54,434 nt of DNA from an uncultured Schlesneria sp. (GTDB taxonomy: Bacteria; Planctomycetota; Planctomycetia; Planctomycetales; Planctomycetaceae). The DNA is taken from assembly GCA_903899985.1 (NCBI GenBank), contig CAIULL010000291.1, forward strand, positions 1-54,434. The letters run 5' to 3'. The notes beneath the pieces are model-generated. The model made no database searches and was not told where the DNA came from. It saw only the letters and a list, made by a program, of their open reading frames with translations. Positions within the stretch are counted from its first letter, which is position 1, and every line of letters begins with the position of its first letter. A program made the translations under genes and the position numbers. Positions 14,005-54,396 of the stretch are shown one piece after another.

Positions 14005-14844
14005 ATGATTCCCGAGGATACTGAGGCAAAAGAGCTCCCGTATTCAGAGAAGTGGTATGAAGATCTTAAACAGACACTTGGTGAGGCGCCGTGCCGTCAA
14101 TTGGGGCTTTATGCGATTCCCGACAGTTTTGTCTTATCCGTCGTCATTCCTGTCTACAACGAGGAGCGCACTTTACAAGTTCTGATCGATCGTGTCAGAG
14201 CAGTTCCCATCCGAAAGCAACTGGTCCTTGTTGAAGATTGCAGTAAAGACAATACGAGAGACATACTAAAGCGTCTTGAACAAGAAAATGTGGATCATCC
14301 CGATCCCATGAATTCGATTATTGTGGCGTATCACGAGGTGAACAAAGGTAAGGGGGCCGCCGTTCGTACCGGCTTTTCCAAAGCGACCGGCGATGCCATC
14401 GTGATTCAAGATGCCGATCTGGAATATGACCCCGAAGAATACCCCCGTTTACTGCATCCGATCATTGATGGATCTGCGGACGTGGTTTACGGTAGCCGGT
14501 TCCTTGGGGGGCAAGAGCACCGCGTTCTCTACTTCTGGCATTCCATCGGAAACAAAGTTCTGACAATGTTGTCTAACGGCTTTACAAATTTGAACCTGAC
14601 GGACATGGAAACCTGTTATAAGCTGTTCACTAAAAAAGCGTTATCTGACATTTGGCCGACATTGAAACAAAATCGTTTTGGTATTGAGCCCGAGTTGACC
14701 GCAAAAATTGCCCGCCGTCGACTGCGCGTCTTTGAAATGTCAATCAGCTACCACGGTCGTACTTATCAAGAGGGCAAACACATCGGTATGTTGGATGGAT
14801 TCCAGGCACTCTGGTGCATTGTCAGATACTGGTGGAAAGATTGA
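14005..14844 (+). CDS. Family 2 glycosyltransferase (DPM1/GtrB-like) with intact DxD
   Basis: A 279-residue GT-A enzyme with all expected landmarks: [10 protein letters not shown] (45-54), [10 protein letters not shown] (75-84), [12 protein letters not shown] (113-124), the metal site DADLEYD (136-142), YGSRFLGG, and the C-terminal DMETCYKLF and [12 protein letters not shown] blocks typical of polyprenyl-phosphate mannose or glucose synthases. No membrane helices. ATG 14005 is chosen over TTG 13987 because GGAG lies five bases upstream. With the two GT-C proteins nearby it is the best candidate for making the lipid-linked sugar donor. Confidence 0.92.
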
Positions 14845-26004: not shown

Positions 26005-26385
26005 CTACCGATGTTTTATCTCTCGAAACTTCGGTGGATGTGCCAGCGTGAAGACAACGACCTCTTCGCCGGTGGCGGTACTGATGTCATGATGCAGGCT
26101 GATCACACGAACTCCGGTGGATTCCTGGACCATGCCCTCCATCAGCGGACGGGCCAATTCAATCAATTGGGTTCGAACTTGCTTCAGCAAATCTCGTCCC
26201 TTTTCGGGTTGCAGCGTCTTCACCAGGTGTTGTTCGGCTGCGGTCAGCACGCCGTAAAGTCGAACCACGACCAGATCGCCGATCAGGTGGGTCTGAATGT
26301 CCTTGGGGCCGCGCCCCATATATTCCTGTTCGAATCGCGAGATTCCCTGGCTGATCGCTGCTTCGATTTCGCCTTGTGACTTCAT
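26005..26385 (-). CDS. DUF2294 / MpsC-like protein, copy 1
   Basis: A 126-residue protein of the DUF2294 family (also named MpsC, a component reported with a Na+-translocating membrane-potential system in Bacillus-type bacteria). Seen: GEIEAAISQGISRFEQEYMGRGPKDI at the N-terminus, LIGDLVVVRLYGVLTAAEQ, then a helix with LIELARPLMEGMVQ and the C-terminal GVRVISLHHDISTATGEEVVVFTL, all typical of the family. ATG 26385 is chosen for family length and AGGA about seven bases upstream; the frame is open to 26484. Divergent from the stress island, whose first element starts ~190 bases away. Its diverged paralogue is at 27.6 kb. Confidence 0.88.
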   Translation of the reverse strand: MKSQGEIEAAISQGISRFEQEYMGRGPKDIQTHLIGDLVVVRLYGVLTAAEQHLVKTLQPEKGRDLLKQVRTQLIELARPLMEGMVQESTGVRVISLHHDISTATGEEVVVFTLAHPPKFREIKHR

Positions 26386-26540
26386 TACAGTTCCTGCTTT
26401 CACTGACGACCTTGGCGTATATTGCTTATCGAGGCCCGCCAGGAAAATCGAACCGATACGGACGGCATATTTAACGCGATTCACATTTTTGTCGCGTGGA
26501 GTTTATCAATGTTATTATGAAATAAATAGAACAATTGCAT

Positions 26541-26568
26541 TGCAAAATCTTCAAAGTCCCGTAAAATG
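26541..26568 (+). promoter_or_regulatory. Sigma70-like promoter of candidate small RNA A
   Basis: TTGCAA (26541-26546), a 16-base spacer, and TAAAAT (26563-26568). It lies in A/T-rich sequence and is followed within about 50 bases by the conserved element. Predicted transcription start near 26575. Consensus match is good but unproven. Confidence 0.45.
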
Positions 26569-26574
26569 ACTTTC

Positions 26575-26721
26575 GTTAAGAGAAAGTAGCTTTAAACCTT
26601 CTTTTAACACTGATCGGAAAACTAATTAAAAAGCAACTCGGCCTGTGCCGGGGGGCTCGTTAGGAAGTAAGCCGACGCAGCAGAATACCTCAGGGTGATC
26701 TGCTGCGTCGGCTTTTTTTTT
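26575..26721 (+). ncRNA. Candidate small RNA A, paralogous to the element at 38.2 kb
   Basis: A non-coding stretch of ~147 bases between a promoter-like sequence and a strong terminator. It shares two identical 11-mers with element B, GATCGGAAAAC (26612-26622) and GTAAGCCGACG (26667-26677), 55 bases apart here and 53 apart in B, plus GGGCTC between them. A short hairpin (ACTTTC/GAAAGT, 26570-26588) lies at the predicted 5' end. GGCT upstream can pair with AGCC of the second 11-mer as an alternative to the terminator stem, so a switch is possible. No open frame is conserved between the copies. I do not recognise the family. A 47-codon gene starts 97 bases beyond the terminator. Confidence 0.5.
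26669..26721 (+). terminator. Strong intrinsic terminator ending candidate RNA A
   Basis: Perfect 15-bp stem (26669-26683 with 26700-26714), a 16-base loop that can itself form ACC-TCAG-GGT, and a run of nine T ending at 26721. One of the two clearest Rho-independent terminators in the window. Confidence 0.85.
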
Positions 26722-26818: not shown

Positions 26819-26962
26819 ATGCGCCGTTTATTAATTGCGGACTGGAATGGGCGACTCTACGAAGTTGACTTACTGCAACCCATTTTTCGACGTATTTCGA
26901 TGGCACTTGCGATCGCAGGCCTCTTGTGTCTCAGCGTGGTGTTCGGTGTGAGCCTGTCGTGA
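26819..26962 (+). CDS. 47-residue single-helix membrane protein
   Basis: Translation begins MRRLLIADWNGRLYEVD and ends in one hydrophobic helix (about residues 26-47, ISMALAIAGLLCLSVVFGVS). GGGGTGA about five to eight bases upstream of ATG 26819 supports this start over upstream in-frame starts from 26720, which lack resemblance to protein. Family unknown. Small one-helix proteins are common in stress regulons. It is the first frame after RNA A. Confidence 0.5.
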   Translation: MRRLLIADWNGRLYEVDLLQPIFRRISMALAIAGLLCLSVVFGVSLS

Positions 26963-27031: not shown

Positions 27032-27412
27032 ATGCAACGAGGATGTTTCGTAACGGTGATCACTTTAAGTCTGATCACTGCCATTCTTTCAGCGAATAAC
27101 GCACACGGCTACGGTCCTGGATGGCGAAGTTCAATCGGACCGCGCGGTTCCAACGACGGATATGGCCAGGGATCGTATGGCGGATACGGACAGGGCAATC
27201 ACTCGAATGGTCCGGGGTTTAGTGGCGGATATGGAAATGGAAATGGAAGCTATGGGTATTCAGGTTATGGAAACGGCCCATACGGATACGGCGACACCAA
27301 TGCAAACTATTACGATCGGTACGGGACCTACGGATATTACGGACCGGCTTATTCGCCTGTTTATAGTCCATACGGATTCGGAATTTATAGCTCGTTCACG
27401 AACGGCTGGTAA
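27032..27412 (+). CDS. Exported Gly/Tyr-rich low-complexity protein
   Basis: A 126-residue protein with a signal peptide (hydrophobic VTVITLSLITAILSA, probable cleavage after NNAHG, ~26). The mature part is almost entirely Gly, Tyr, Ser, Asn and Pro in irregular GYG/GGYG/NGY steps. Such sequences are seen in extracellular matrix, cell-wall or amyloid-forming proteins; a structural surface role is inference. AGGA about eight bases before the ATG supports the start. The larger Gly/Tyr-rich protein at 29.2 kb has a similar segment. Confidence 0.75.
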   Translation: MQRGCFVTVITLSLITAILSANNAHGYGPGWRSSIGPRGSNDGYGQGSYGGYGQGNHSNGPGFSGGYGNGNGSYGYSGYGNGPYGYGDTNANYYDRYGTYGYYGPAYSPVYSPYGFGIYSSFTNGW

Positions 27413-27606: not shown

Positions 27607-27999
27607 ATGGACCACCCTAATTTGATTATGGCACAGCGGATTGCGCAGGTGGCCAGCACCCTGGAACAGCAACGAACTGGCCACTTGCCCGGTTCCGTGA
27701 CGGTTGTTTTAAGTGATGACATTCTGGTTGTGACGCTGCATGAGCATATGACGCTTGCCGAGAAGGCGTTGTCGAAGACCCCTGCGGGATCGGAACAGGT
27801 CCAGCATTTTCACAAAGAACTTTTTTCCAACTCGTCTGATCCGCTTCGGCTGGAAATCAATCGAATTTCCGGACGGTTGGTGCGGGAAGCCGCAACGGAA
27901 ATCGAGCCGAAATCTGGCTCGGTAGTTCATGCTTTTACGACCGGCACGATGGTGCAAGTGTTCTTGCTCACTAACGACACTCCGTCAAAAGAGGGGTGA
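27607..27999 (+). CDS. DUF2294 / MpsC-like protein, copy 2 (diverged)
   Basis: A 130-residue protein with the DUF2294 layout: an N-terminal helix (MAQRIAQVASTLEQQRTGHLP), beta strands around SVTVVLSDDILVVTLHEHMTLAEKAL, a helix ending FHKELFSNSSDPLRLEINRISG, and the C-terminal strand pair SGSVVHAFTTGTMVQVFLL. It is clearly diverged from copy 1 at 26.0 kb. GGAAGA lies about eight bases upstream of the ATG. The next gene starts 26 bases after its stop. Confidence 0.7.
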   Translation: MDHPNLIMAQRIAQVASTLEQQRTGHLPGSVTVVLSDDILVVTLHEHMTLAEKALSKTPAGSEQVQHFHKELFSNSSDPLRLEINRISGRLVREAATEIEPKSGSVVHAFTTGTMVQVFLLTNDTPSKEG

Positions 28000-38228: not shown

Positions 38229-38343
38229 CCTGTCGTTTTGATCGGAAAACAAAATAGAGAACAGCCGGTTAAAGCGGGCTCTTCATTATTACGTAAGCCG
38301 ACGAGGGGAAATGTCTTCAGACAAATGACCTCGTCGGTTTTTT
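38229..38343 (+). ncRNA. Candidate small RNA B, paralogous to the element at 26.6 kb
   Basis: About 115 bases with GATCGGAAAAC (38240-38250) and GTAAGCCGACG (38293-38303), both identical to element A, and GGGCTC between them. The remaining bases differ but the fold is kept: a GC-rich 3' hairpin with a small inner stem and a T-run. GGCT can alternatively pair with AGCC of the second block. It ends 120 bases before the acyltransferase start, so it is either an independent small RNA or a leader/attenuator for that gene. Confidence 0.5.
38295..38343 (+). terminator. Intrinsic terminator of candidate RNA B
   Basis: Stem 38295-38306 (AAGCCGACGAGG) with 38329-38340 (CCTCGTCGGTTT), one G-U pair, an inner TGTC-TTCA-GACA stem in the loop, and six T at 38338-38343. 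Confidence 0.8.
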
Positions 38344-38463
38344 CATTCTGGCGGCGTATCACGGACGCTACCTCGATGCGTCAAATTCGTCCGTGAGATG
38401 CGTGGCGGACATTTCAAGTACGTTCCACCTCGAAAAAAACTCGTGTTTTCAGCGGAGGTTGAC

Positions 38464-39777
38464 GTGCAATTTGCTGTTTCTGCCACTCCTTCATGTCAGA
38501 TATCTGCAAACCCCATGCGTCTGCACGGGTTAGATGCCTTACGCGGAATTGCTGCCGTATTCGTCGTGTTACTGCATGCGGGGATTCCCTATATGACAGC
38601 CCCCCTGTCATATCTTGTCTGGCCATCGCGCGATGCCCATCCTTGCCCGGTTGTGGATGGGCTGACATGGTGTACCGAGTGCTTTCTGATGCCACTGTTC
38701 TTCGTGCTGGCGGGATTCTTTTCTCAGGGGATTCTGATCTCACGCGGCGAACGAAAATTTCTTGCGGGCCGAACTCATCGCCTGATGGTGACTCAGTTCT
38801 TCGCCGGACCGTTAGTCATGCTTCCTTGCCTGGGTATCTGGTCACTCGGCTGGATCGGTGATGGATTGTTCGTCCCGAAGAATCTTATGAACTGGGGGAT
38901 GCCGCGAGAGGTCGAATCGGAACTTTACGGATTCGGGCACTTCTGGTTTCTCAATTATCTTTACACTTATTGTCTGATTCTGTGCGGCGCCAGCTGGCTG
39001 ACAAAACGTATCTGCGGGCCCGAGCTCGTCGAGGCCGACCGTCAGACGCCACGATTTCTGGCGATTGACCGGGTGATGGTGTCGGTCTGGAAGCCGCTAT
39101 TACCCGCGATTCCGTGTGCGATCGTCCTGTTTTATGACCCGCGAATCGTGCTCGGCTTTTATCAGACATTTCTACCGGTTCTTTCAAAACTGGTTTATTA
39201 CTCGATCTATTTCTTCGTCGGTGTCGCGATGTACCGACATCGTACGGCGCTGCATCTGCACGCCCGTTTCGGCAAGTCGTATTTAGCGATTGCGAGTCTG
39301 CTTTTCGCAGCCAGCTTGCCGATGATTCACGAACATCAGGCATCGGAATTGAATGGTGGCCGACTGGCACTGATGTCCGGGTTGCTGGCCTTGTTCGCCT
39401 GGTACACGACTTTCGGTCTGCTGGCGATTTCGTTACGAACGAAGCATGGTGAGAACGCGATCCTGCGTTATCTCGCGGAAGCTTCGTTCTGGGTCTATAT
39501 CGTTCATTTGCCGTTTGTCGGATTGACGCACGTGGCGATTACTCGATTGGCCATACCGACGATCGCCAAATTTCTGTTGGCGGGACTGATCCCACTCTCA
39601 ATTTCGCTGACGACTTACCAGGTGTTCGTGCGAGAAAAATGGTTGGGACAGTTTTTAGACGGACGTTCTCGACGAGTTAATCCCGTCACAAACCTTGCGG
39701 CGACGGAGGTACGTCGTCCGCTGAAGGCGCCCCACTTTGCGGTTTCTGCTGCAAGCAAAGCGAGAAGCGGTGTTTAA
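38464..39777 (+). CDS. Acyltransferase family 3 membrane protein (OpgC/OafA-like)
   Basis: A 437-residue protein with about ten membrane helices. The Acyl_transf_3 signature is present near the start: RLHGLDALRGIAAVFVVLLH with the conserved His ending helix 1, followed by MPLFFVLAGFFSQ and ERKFLAGRTHRL. OpgC-type proteins succinylate periplasmic glucans and OafA-type proteins acetylate surface sugars; the substrate is unknown. GTG 38464 is chosen for GGAGG five bases upstream; ATG 38515 is nearest to the domain and ATG 38398 is possible. Candidate RNA B and its terminator precede the gene. Confidence 0.88.
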   Translation: MQFAVSATPSCQISANPMRLHGLDALRGIAAVFVVLLHAGIPYMTAPLSYLVWPSRDAHPCPVVDGLTWCTECFLMPLFFVLAGFFSQGILISRGERKFLAGRTHRLMVTQFFAGPLVMLPCLGIWSLGWIGDGLFVPKNLMNWGMPREVESELYGFGHFWFLNYLYTYCLILCGASWLTKRICGPELVEADRQTPRFLAIDRVMVSVWKPLLPAIPCAIVLFYDPRIVLGFYQTFLPVLSKLVYYSIYFFVGVAMYRHRTALHLHARFGKSYLAIASLLFAASLPMIHEHQASELNGGRLALMSGLLALFAWYTTFGLLAISLRTKHGENAILRYLAEASFWVYIVHLPFVGLTHVAITRLAIPTIAKFLLAGLIPLSISLTTYQVFVREKWLGQFLDGRSRRVNPVTNLAATEVRRPLKAPHFAVSAASKARSGV

Positions 39778-47053: not shown

Positions 47054-47089
47054 AGTCCAGGCGAGCCGGGCGGCGTAAGCCCCCGGACT
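47054..47089 (+). repeat. REP-like palindromic element, copy 1
   Basis: Starts AGTCCAGGCGAGCCGGGCGG and ends GGACT, so the ends pair, with GCCGGGCGGC inside. A near-identical inverted copy is at 54363-54396. Located in the 351-base gap between the second PSCyt1/DUF1549/DUF1553 gene and its DUF1501 partner; just upstream is a CACGAAG-rich stretch (47013-47043). Confidence 0.6.
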
Positions 47090-47142
47090 CTTTTCTTCGA
47101 TGGATCTATCTCGCCCGGCAACAACGTTAAGAAAGAGTTTTA

Positions 47143-47274
47143 GAACACTAATCTTCGCTAATTAACGCTAATAAGAGAAAGAAGCAGAAAGTTCAGTAAA
47201 TAATTCGAACCGTGTGTCTTCCCGAAATCCGTCTTAATTGTCTTATTAGTGCAGATTAGCGAAGATTAGTGTTC
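47143..47274. repeat. 34-base inverted repeat around a 64-base spacer
   Basis: Arm 47143-47176 and arm 47241-47274 are complementary with four mismatches. The arms carry TAATCTTCGCTAAT-type sequence. The whole could form a long hairpin or be the remnant of a small non-autonomous element (MITE-like). It lies 31 bases before the start of the DUF1501 gene and may separate or regulate it. Confidence 0.6.
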
Positions 47275-47305
47275 CAATCCCGTATTTCTTGGAAATCATC
47301 GTATT

Positions 47306-48742
47306 ATGACTATTCCGACATCAATTGCTCGGCGTTCGTTCTTGCAGACGGCTGGAGTCAGTCTTGGTTCGATCGCTTTAACCTCACTGTTAAAGCAGGA
47401 CGGTTTCGCGGCGGAAGTGAAGCAAGAGGCGAGCGTGCCGAAGTGGACTGGCGTGTTGAATCCCACTCATTTTGCTCCCAAAGCCAAGCGAGTGATCTGG
47501 CTGTATATGGCGGGTGGGATGACTCACATCGACACGTTCGACAACAAGCCGAAGCTGGCAGAGCTTCACGGTCAGGCGATGCCCGAATCGATTACGAAAG
47601 GGCAACAGATCGCTCAACTGCAAGGTCAGAAACTGAATTGTTTCGCGCCGCAGCACGCGTTCAAACAGTTTGGTGCCTCAGGCCAGTCGATGGCCGAGAT
47701 CTGGCCGCATCTTGGCGAGAAGTGTGCTGACGACATGTGCATCGTACGGTCGCTTTACACTGAAGCGATTAATCACGATCCGGCTCACACGTTCATGAAT
47801 ACCGGTTCTATGAATGCCGGTCGTCCGGCGATGGGCTCGTGGCTGCTGTACGGTCTGGGGACCGAGTCAGAAAGCCTGCCCGGTTTCGTCGTGATGGTTT
47901 CGACAGGAAAATTCGGACAAAAGCAGCCCATCGCTGCACGCCAATGGCATTCCGGGTTTCTACCCGGTCAGTTTCAGGGAGTCGAATTTCGAGGGACGGG
48001 CGACCCCGTGCTGTACGTGGGCAATCCCAAAGGAGTGAACAGCAAACGACAACGAGACATCGTCGATTCCGTTCAAGCACTGAATGGTCTGGCGAATCAG
48101 ACGTTTGACGATCCTGAAATCGCCACTCGCGTCAGCCAATACGAACTGGCCTTTCGGATGCAGTCGAGTGTCCCGGAACTGATGGACGTGCGGAACGAAC
48201 CTCAACATATTTTTGATCTGTACGGAACCAAAGGAGGCGATGGTTCATTCGCCTCGAATTGCCTGCTGGCACGACGGCTGGCCGAACGAGGGACCCGATT
48301 TATCCAGCTCTATCATCGTGACTGGGATCACCACGGCGCGGTCAAAGAACATTCGGCAGGAACGGCGAAAGAAGTCGATCAAGGGATCGCAGCGCTGATC
48401 GTCGATCTCAAACAGCGAGACATGCTGAAAGACACGTTGATTGTCTTCGGTTCGGAATTCGGACGAACTCCCATGGCGCAAGGAAATGGCCGCGACCATC
48501 ACCTAGCCGGGTTCACGATGTGGTTCGCAGGAGGTGGCTTCAAGCCAGGCTTCAGTTATGGCGCCACCGACGAATTCGGTTATCACTCCATCGAAAACCG
48601 AGTCTCCGTCCACGACATTCATGCCACGCTTCTCCACCAACTGGGAATCGACCACAATAAATTCAGCTACAAATTCCAGGGCCTGGATTCCCGCCTGACC
48701 GGAGTCGAGCCATGCCGCGTTGTCCATGAGCTTTTAACGTAG
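47306..48742 (+). CDS. Tat-exported DUF1501 protein, second copy
   Basis: A 478-residue protein with a twin-arginine signal (ARRSFLQ, 8-14, then AGVSLGSIALTSLL). DUF1501 body: WLYMAGGMTHIDTFDNKP, INHDPAHTFMNTGS, FIQLYHRDWDHHGAVKEHS, FGSEFGRTP and GRDHHLAGF. The His/Asp-rich sites match an alkaline-phosphatase-like fold, and more of them are kept than in the shorter 23.0-kb copy. Pairs with the PSCyt1/DUF1549/DUF1553 protein upstream, but with a 351-base gap full of repeats, so separate promoters are possible. Confidence 0.93.
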   Translation: MTIPTSIARRSFLQTAGVSLGSIALTSLLKQDGFAAEVKQEASVPKWTGVLNPTHFAPKAKRVIWLYMAGGMTHIDTFDNKPKLAELHGQAMPESITKGQQIAQLQGQKLNCFAPQHAFKQFGASGQSMAEIWPHLGEKCADDMCIVRSLYTEAINHDPAHTFMNTGSMNAGRPAMGSWLLYGLGTESESLPGFVVMVSTGKFGQKQPIAARQWHSGFLPGQFQGVEFRGTGDPVLYVGNPKGVNSKRQRDIVDSVQALNGLANQTFDDPEIATRVSQYELAFRMQSSVPELMDVRNEPQHIFDLYGTKGGDGSFASNCLLARRLAERGTRFIQLYHRDWDHHGAVKEHSAGTAKEVDQGIAALIVDLKQRDMLKDTLIVFGSEFGRTPMAQGNGRDHHLAGFTMWFAGGGFKPGFSYGATDEFGYHSIENRVSVHDIHATLLHQLGIDHNKFSYKFQGLDSRLTGVEPCRVVHELLT

Positions 48743-54217: not shown

Positions 54218-54362
54218 GAGTATCTCGCTTGGGAACCCTTTGGGACGTTTCATAAAAAGTTTAGCCGGAAATAGACGAAACGCACGAACGAATTGTAGTC
54301 AAACGAGGTGCTGTTCTCGGAAATGCCTACCACGCGCCGTCGTAAATCATTGCCAAACGAAG

Positions 54363-54396
54363 AATCCGGGGACTCACGTCGCCCGGCTCGCCTGGT
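54363..54396 (-). repeat. REP-like palindromic element, copy 2 (inverted)
   Basis: Reads TCCGGGG, then GTCGCCCGGCTCGCCTGG on the plus strand, the inverse of the element at 47054-47089 with only a few mismatches. Lies in the upstream region of the DUF4058 gene. Confidence 0.55.

Follow-up and report, generated by a model that had tools for sequence, protein, structure and literature searches.

A family of structured elements before stress-type genes in Planctomycetia, probable transcription-attenuating leaders

The locus and its two paralogous elements

The window, that is, the whole stretch of 54,434 nucleotides analysed here from an uncultured Schlesneria sp. (class Planctomycetia), carries two paralogous elements, A at 26612-26721 and B at 38240-38343, whose features are collected in Table 1 together with the neighbouring genes. 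Element A belongs to the window's copy of the mpsC locus, in which mpsC-a points away from the element and two small frames stand before mpsC-b on the element's own strand. The start of mpsC-a is read at the ATG at 26385; the listed frame extends to 26484 from a GTG. The first small frame behind A is by eye like the predicted protein behind the element of locus L008, itself grouped with one of genome G004, and it also resembles by eye the frames behind the orthologous elements of genomes G001 and G004. Element B stands before an acyltransferase gene, and the stretch from A to B carries, among others, genes for MpsC, two CsbD proteins (one below the Pfam cut-off), and ferritin-like, holin-X-like and YflT proteins. 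Elsewhere in the window, a 36-base inverted repeat (47057-47092 and 54360-54395, 89% complementary, 7.3 kb apart) has arms that may belong to a repeat scattered between genes, and a 45-base inverted repeat at 47140-47277 (82% complementary, 48 bases between the arms) makes a long hairpin immediately before the frame at 47306.

Table 1. Features of elements A and B and of the genes beside them (window coordinates)
Feature	Position	Strand	Basis or remark
Promoter-like TTGCAA-N16-TAAAAT, element A	26540-26567	+	Read from sequence
P1, 5' hairpin of A	26575-26608	+	Folding; variable, some copies without it
5' motif GAUCGGAAAAC of A	26612-26622	+	UCGG at 26614-26617, potential partner of CCGA in the terminator arm
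P2 of A, stem with three internal loops	26621-26668	+	Folds and covariation
Intrinsic terminator of A (predicted)	26669-26721	+	Hairpin 26669-26714, T-run 26713-26721
Terminator 5' arm of A, AAGCCGACG	26669-26677	+	Strand common to the terminator and the 5'-motif pairing
5' motif GAUCGGAAAAC of B	38240-38250	+	Sequence match
P2 of B	38253-38290	+	Folds
Intrinsic terminator of B (predicted)	38295-38343	+	Folds; 5' arm AAGCCGACG at 38295-38303
mpsC-a, divergent neighbour of A	26005-26385	-	Pfam MpsC PF10057, 2e-38, on frame 26005-26484
First small ORF behind A, about 47 aa, membrane-like	26819-26962	+	Read from sequence; longer frame without Pfam family
Glycine/tyrosine-rich 126-aa ORF behind A	27032-27412	+	No Pfam family; grouped with the protein behind the G005 element
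mpsC-b, on the strand of A	27607-27999	+	Pfam MpsC, 2.8e-18
Acyltransferase gene behind B	38515-39777	+	Pfam Acyl_transf_3, 2.4e-25, on longer frame 38398-39777; start 38515 from gene caller

The initial annotation had reported two identical blocks at 26.6 and 38.2 kb, a promoter-like site upstream of A, and a terminator whose 5' arm is the second block of A, all of which we recovered. The first block, GATCGGAAAAC, lies at 26612-26622 and 38240-38250, and the second, GTAAGCCGACG, at 26667-26677 and 38293-38303, with start-to-start spacings of 55 bases in A and 53 in B and no other exact copies of either in the window. With up to one mismatch, GTAAGCCGACG has 4 matches in the window versus 0.6 expected, a number reached in 0 of 100 shuffles, and GATCGGAAAAC alone is unremarkable, its count being reached by 12 of 100 shuffles. 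The two-block pattern occurs twice in the 8.0-Mb genome, both times in the window, and a reversed control pattern gives no occurrence. That the blocks themselves form a promoter was considered and rejected, as their starts are 53-55 bases apart and both lie inside the predicted transcript.

A scan of the genome contigs with a nearly identical pattern gave 7 more stretches, each from one of three assemblies of uncultured Schlesneria. Among them, L007, L008 and L009 are orthologous to A and L005 to B, and L003, L004 and L006 form a third type, C, which is present in the window's own genome as well (L010). Element B was seen in two genomes; as A stands in the widespread mpsC locus, we infer that A is probably the older copy and B a younger paralogue placed before the acyltransferase gene.

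Extent of the family

A covariance model built from ten copies (R1) matched in at least 15 of 40 genomes, the window's own included, with scoring confined to the best candidates, at most 95 per genome; in the own genus, no R1 match was found in 5 of 15 genomes at the thresholds used, again among the best candidates scored. The covariance search of fetched stretches led to set 1, with 138 copies in 13 genomes, 1 to 28 in each (137 of 222 matches kept, plus L045:9749 from an earlier search). The sense copies in the window's genome number at least 16 (17 kept out of 22 matches), and the largest number in one genome, up to 28 sense copies, is found in G005 (45 matches before cleaning). A second model, built from 119 copies (R2), matched in at least 68 of the 297 class genomes and in 44 of 155 genera, with up to 12 best candidates scored per genome. 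The distribution is patchy, the remaining 229 genomes giving no R2 match at the threshold used among the best candidates scored. In a sample of the whole phylum, R2 matched in at least 5 of 246 genomes, one of them the window's own, with up to 15 candidates scored per genome. From the class-scan matches we sampled 36 further genomes and kept 82 of 147 matches as set 2.

These numbers should be read with the properties of the search in mind. Shadows of the terminator on the opposite strand score 20-50 bits, so that a weak score alone is no proof of a copy; they were removed from the sets, together with two matches cut by contig ends, and are included in the raw match counts of R1 and of the class-wide R2 scan, which therefore overstate the copies. 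Conversely, genome and copy numbers may be too low where best candidates per genome were scored. Copies from close relatives are not independent, and in four weak rows that were kept (L045:9749, L098:450, L090:4901 and L120:7110) the motif is degenerate or unrecognisable.

A and B had been seen as a special pair bracketing a stress island; as two among the many sense copies in the genome they lose this distinction. The search for further copies with compensatory changes, on which the initial annotation had staked its proposal of a family, yielded the 138 and 82 copies of the two sets, in which P2 and the terminator covary.

Several arrangements of copies were also observed. Tandem elements 10-20 bases apart, each with its own terminator, precede one gene at two loci, L057 (2948-3060 and 3071-3179) and L169 (4688-4789 and 4809-4916); such tandem arrangement is known for riboswitches. 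Divergent pairs occur as well, as at L042, where elements about 200 bases apart occupy 14263-14371 (-) and 14573-14683 (+), with similar pairs at L104 (8737-, 9050+), L120, L092, L093, L098 and L105.

Position before genes

Among the copies with a gene call, the next downstream gene is on the element's strand in 206 of 212 (133/136 in set 1, 73/76 in set 2), and the terminator ends before that gene. The upstream gene shows no preference, being on the same or the opposite strand in 94 and 106 cases (52/74 in set 1, 42/32 in set 2). In element-free gaps of at least 150 bases from the same loci, taken on both strands, the gene downstream of a divergent upstream gene was same-strand in 46/161 and 22/85. 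Judged by position, the elements are 5' leaders of the downstream genes, since the downstream gene alone keeps the element's strand, and this is the site at which a riboswitch class is expected. The view of the element as a small-RNA gene, taken by the initial annotation, has to be given up for the same strand counts and the same order of terminator and gene; a trans-acting small RNA is expected to have no fixed relation to the next gene.

Genes were called by a codon-usage script, whose omissions include the 47-aa frame behind A and, in G195, mpsC-b. Between the element and the called start there are 25-184 bases in 135 of the 206 same-strand cases, with a median of 110. Promoter-like sites (TTGCTA-like plus TAnnnT, 15-18 apart, score of at least 8) were found between -115 and -15 in 63/138 copies of set 1 and 41/82 of set 2, versus 8/136 and 2/81 in the control region from -215 to -115; these counts are descriptive, as the consensus was picked after enriched hexamers had been found in the same regions. 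In set 1 the sites are commonest near -70, in set 2 near -90.

Target genes and the mpsC locus

The proteins downstream of set 1 fall into 59 groups (single linkage, blastp E 1e-5), and 23 of the 30 representatives scanned have Pfam matches. One Pfam group, CheB/CheR/PAS/histidine kinase, stands behind 13 copies. The others are BON, DUF3309, DUF5670, KaiC, Usp, CsbD, DUF4142, DUF308, TspO, MCRA, cation P-type ATPase, MpsC, DoxX, FtsX-type permease, ice-binding-like, chalcone-synthase-like, nitric oxide reductase, ArsA, CAP, PRC, short-chain dehydrogenase and CsrA. We read these targets as stress and envelope genes, by judgement of the Pfam list rather than by enrichment, and on the same judgement the link to stress genes that had been drawn from the neighbourhood of A and B holds across the copies.

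MpsC has matches in 94 of the 297 class genomes, and its occurrence goes with that of the element: 54 genomes have both, 14 the element alone and 40 MpsC alone (Fisher P 6.5e-21, a test which ignores kinship). A script check of genomes chosen by eye from among the matches listed gave the triad of mpsC-a pointing away, the element, and mpsC-b on the element's strand in at least 22. The same order is seen in a genome outside the class, G422 (locus L209), by eye from the frames.

Conserved structure

In the alignment of P2 and the terminator (119 copies), 33 of the 37 pairs have changes on both sides, and 90.5% of the cells are paired, a value reached by 0 of 500 shuffles and falling to 30-49% when the partners are slid; as the alignments were fitted to the model's structure, the covariation count leans towards that structure. 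The family thus has a conserved structured domain with covariation support, as is asked of a riboswitch class. The initial annotation had called the region between the blocks poorly conserved, which is right for its letters, as they vary, and wrong for its structure, which is kept as the P2 stem with compensating changes. The 5' motif, UCGGA-N-GAC, is near-invariant and made of unpaired letters: in the 82 copies of set 2 its counts run C78 G82 G81 A77 N G81, and CCG of the terminator arm is present in 82/82 at each base. A mini-hairpin GUC-GGAN-GAC at the motif, seen in other families, was considered and rejected for A and B, where by eye it cannot form. P1 is frequent but variable among the copies; shuffle-based folding gave its region (-55 to 0) a mean z of -0.98 over 220 copies versus -0.13 for a control region over 218.

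Competing helices

According to the folding, UCGG of the motif can pair with CCGA of the terminator 5' arm and would then close the base of P2 with a 3x3 internal loop; the closure and the terminator share the arm AAGCCGACG and are predicted to be mutually exclusive. The helix can reach three or more contiguous pairs in 194 of 201 copies and six in 66; in 7 it stays below three. Of leaders that end before the 3' arm of the terminator, 190/201 (111/119 and 79/82) show all three CGG:CCG pairs in their best fold, and the number drops to 12 (6 and 6) after a single shuffling of the 5' nine bases. In complete leaders the closure is in the best fold of 0/201 (0 and 0). These truncation folds begin where the model begins and so leave out P1; A and B fold to the closure when truncated, also with 5' sequence added.

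The covariation of the competing helix is weak, as the inner CGG and CCG hardly vary. Pooled over the copies, the outer pairs show no excess (x3-y4 159/201 versus 160.5 in shuffles; x2-y5 90/201 versus 94.0), and a small excess is found for x1-y6 (149/201 versus 141.3, P 0.001) and for the middle G-C (200/201 versus 199, P 0.01). Compensated CAG/CUG occurs in L086, L049, L118, L123 and L103, and since all five precede orthologous genes they are probably one event; the member of this orthologous set in G013 (L053) retains CGG/CCG. Compensated GGUCGG/CCGACC is found in L162 and L175. Taken together, the competing-helix step is strongly suggested by folding, with weak covariation.

Comparison with described RNAs

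Rfam 15 was consulted and, in agreement with the initial annotation, leaves the family unassigned. At gathering scores it gave no match in the window and 5 loci, and at E up to 0.5 none in 4 further loci. Below the cut-off, there are ten weak matches around A, the best being Lambda_thermo on the terminator hairpin with 23.6 bits versus 50, and one around B, with 13.8 bits versus a cut-off of 90. The parts seen of the open-access literature on planctomycete riboswitches, structured RNA and attenuation, a scope outside which a 2017 survey of 224 motifs falls, hold nothing recognisable as the family. The RNA switch family is thus apparently undescribed, in the sense of being absent from Rfam 15 and from the literature searched. 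One published candidate deserves mention: Rhodopirellula-1, listed for Proteobacteria and Planctomycetes as a probable cis-regulatory candidate of ambiguous RNA status and without an Rfam accession (Weinberg 2010, PMC2864571). The hosts and the cis-regulatory character agree, as far as a table entry rather than sequence or structure can be compared, and by this description the present family may be the same as Rhodopirellula-1 (PMC2864571).

Discussion

We consider it rather probable that A and B are 5' leaders working as transcription attenuators by means of competing helices. RNA polymerase would start at the leader's own predicted promoter and make in order UCGGA-N-GAC, P2 and then AAGCCGACG. 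UCGG and CCGA would pair, and P2 would be closed into one stem of about 60 bases acting as an antiterminator. The strand CGUCGGCUU, made next, would compete for CCGA, open the closed stem and form the terminator, at which transcription would halt ahead of the gene. Read-through into the stress gene would follow if a putative signal kept the stem closed or made the switch later. In this scheme the promoter activity, the termination and the way in which the switch runs are deduced from sequence and folding, and so is the signal, both that there is one and what it may be.

Regarding the signal, two readings seem to us as likely as each other. In the first, which we put forward tentatively, the family is a new riboswitch-like class that senses some general sign of stress, a nucleotide second messenger or alarmone perhaps. 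It would control termination, not initiation, across a planctomycete stress regulon of about 28 leaders per genome at the maximum. We think of a second messenger because up to 28 copies and mixed targets recall the regulon-wide riboswitches for such molecules, which likewise have many copies and mixed targets. Among transcription-terminating riboswitches, S-box and c-di-GMP-I are regulon-wide classes. The present family resembles these in being a 5' leader whose structured domain shares a strand with an intrinsic terminator, in its many copies per genome, in its unrelated downstream genes with a common theme and in its tandem copies; it differs in having no Rfam match, in a shared strand by which a single long stem is closed at its base, and in that the role of a ligand is putative.

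The second reading, to which we give the same tentative weight, keeps the attenuator and replaces the small molecule by an RNA-binding protein, for instance a CsrA paralogue recognising the near-invariant GGA of the motif. CsrA has matches in all 297 class genomes, 9 of them in the window's genome, and csrA-like genes stand behind the element in G015 (by Pfam), in G011 (grouped with it) and in G195 (by eye, behind mpsC-b); no second equally conserved GGA was seen, however, and a universal protein cannot track the element, so that its presence in 297/297 genomes is neutral in the matter. CsrA matches are numerous in the class, from 1 to 17 per genome. Other protein-controlled antiterminators are of the RAT/BglG-LicT and ANTAR types, whose stem overlaps the terminator 5' arm. 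The present stem, with its internal loops, overlaps the arm in like manner; it differs in that the closed stem has about 60 nt and lacks paired hexaloops. An ANTAR protein as the trigger was considered and rejected, the domain (PF03861) having no match in the window's genome (G000) or in G001, G004 and G005, all of which carry the element.

That the terminator is unregulated, merely damping expression or insulating genes, would agree with complete leaders, none of which has the closed antiterminator helix in its best fold, but a damper has no need of a conserved stem and of a 5' motif whose pairing ties up the terminator arm in nearly all truncated copies, and we regard this as unlikely.

That the elements are small RNAs that act in trans and end in intrinsic terminators, with UCGGA-N-GAC or GUAAGCCG as the seed for pairing with mRNA, seems quite unlikely to us. 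Length, terminator and multiple copies are indeed those of such families, and the promoter-like site of its own and the strongly conserved unpaired motif speak for it. Free-standing genes would have no reason, however, for the next gene downstream to share their strand in 206 of 212 cases, and in genomes of three families (G239, G116, G131, G067 and G274) the element stands 46-54 bases before mpsC-b. A terminated leader could nonetheless act in trans.

Ribosome-mediated attenuation through a leader peptide is highly improbable. ATG frames of at least six codons that start between -60 and +10 and stop in the leader occur in 125 of 220 copies versus 84-108 in ten shuffles; on the other side, 76 of the 220 have no ATG from -60 to +5, a Shine-Dalgarno-like stretch accompanies 40 of 347 ATGs, the 40 peptides concerned look unrelated, and no conserved short frame was found in the leader among the 220 copies. 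A dispersed repeat or small mobile element, which the up to 28 sense copies in G005 might recall, has hardly any probability left, as the copies are diverged with the pairing kept, keep one orientation towards the gene that follows and share the mpsC synteny across families, and neither plasmids (one copy as query) nor viral contigs (one strict pattern) gave a match.

To our knowledge, the control of stress genes in planctomycetes is a largely open field, and MpsC a poorly understood family. An attenuating leader shared by unrelated genes of stress type would be a readable address of a regulon, whose members can be listed by covariance search, and it would attach regulation to MpsC. If the trigger is a small molecule, the elements would make up a new regulon-wide riboswitch class, and if it is a protein, a new antitermination system.
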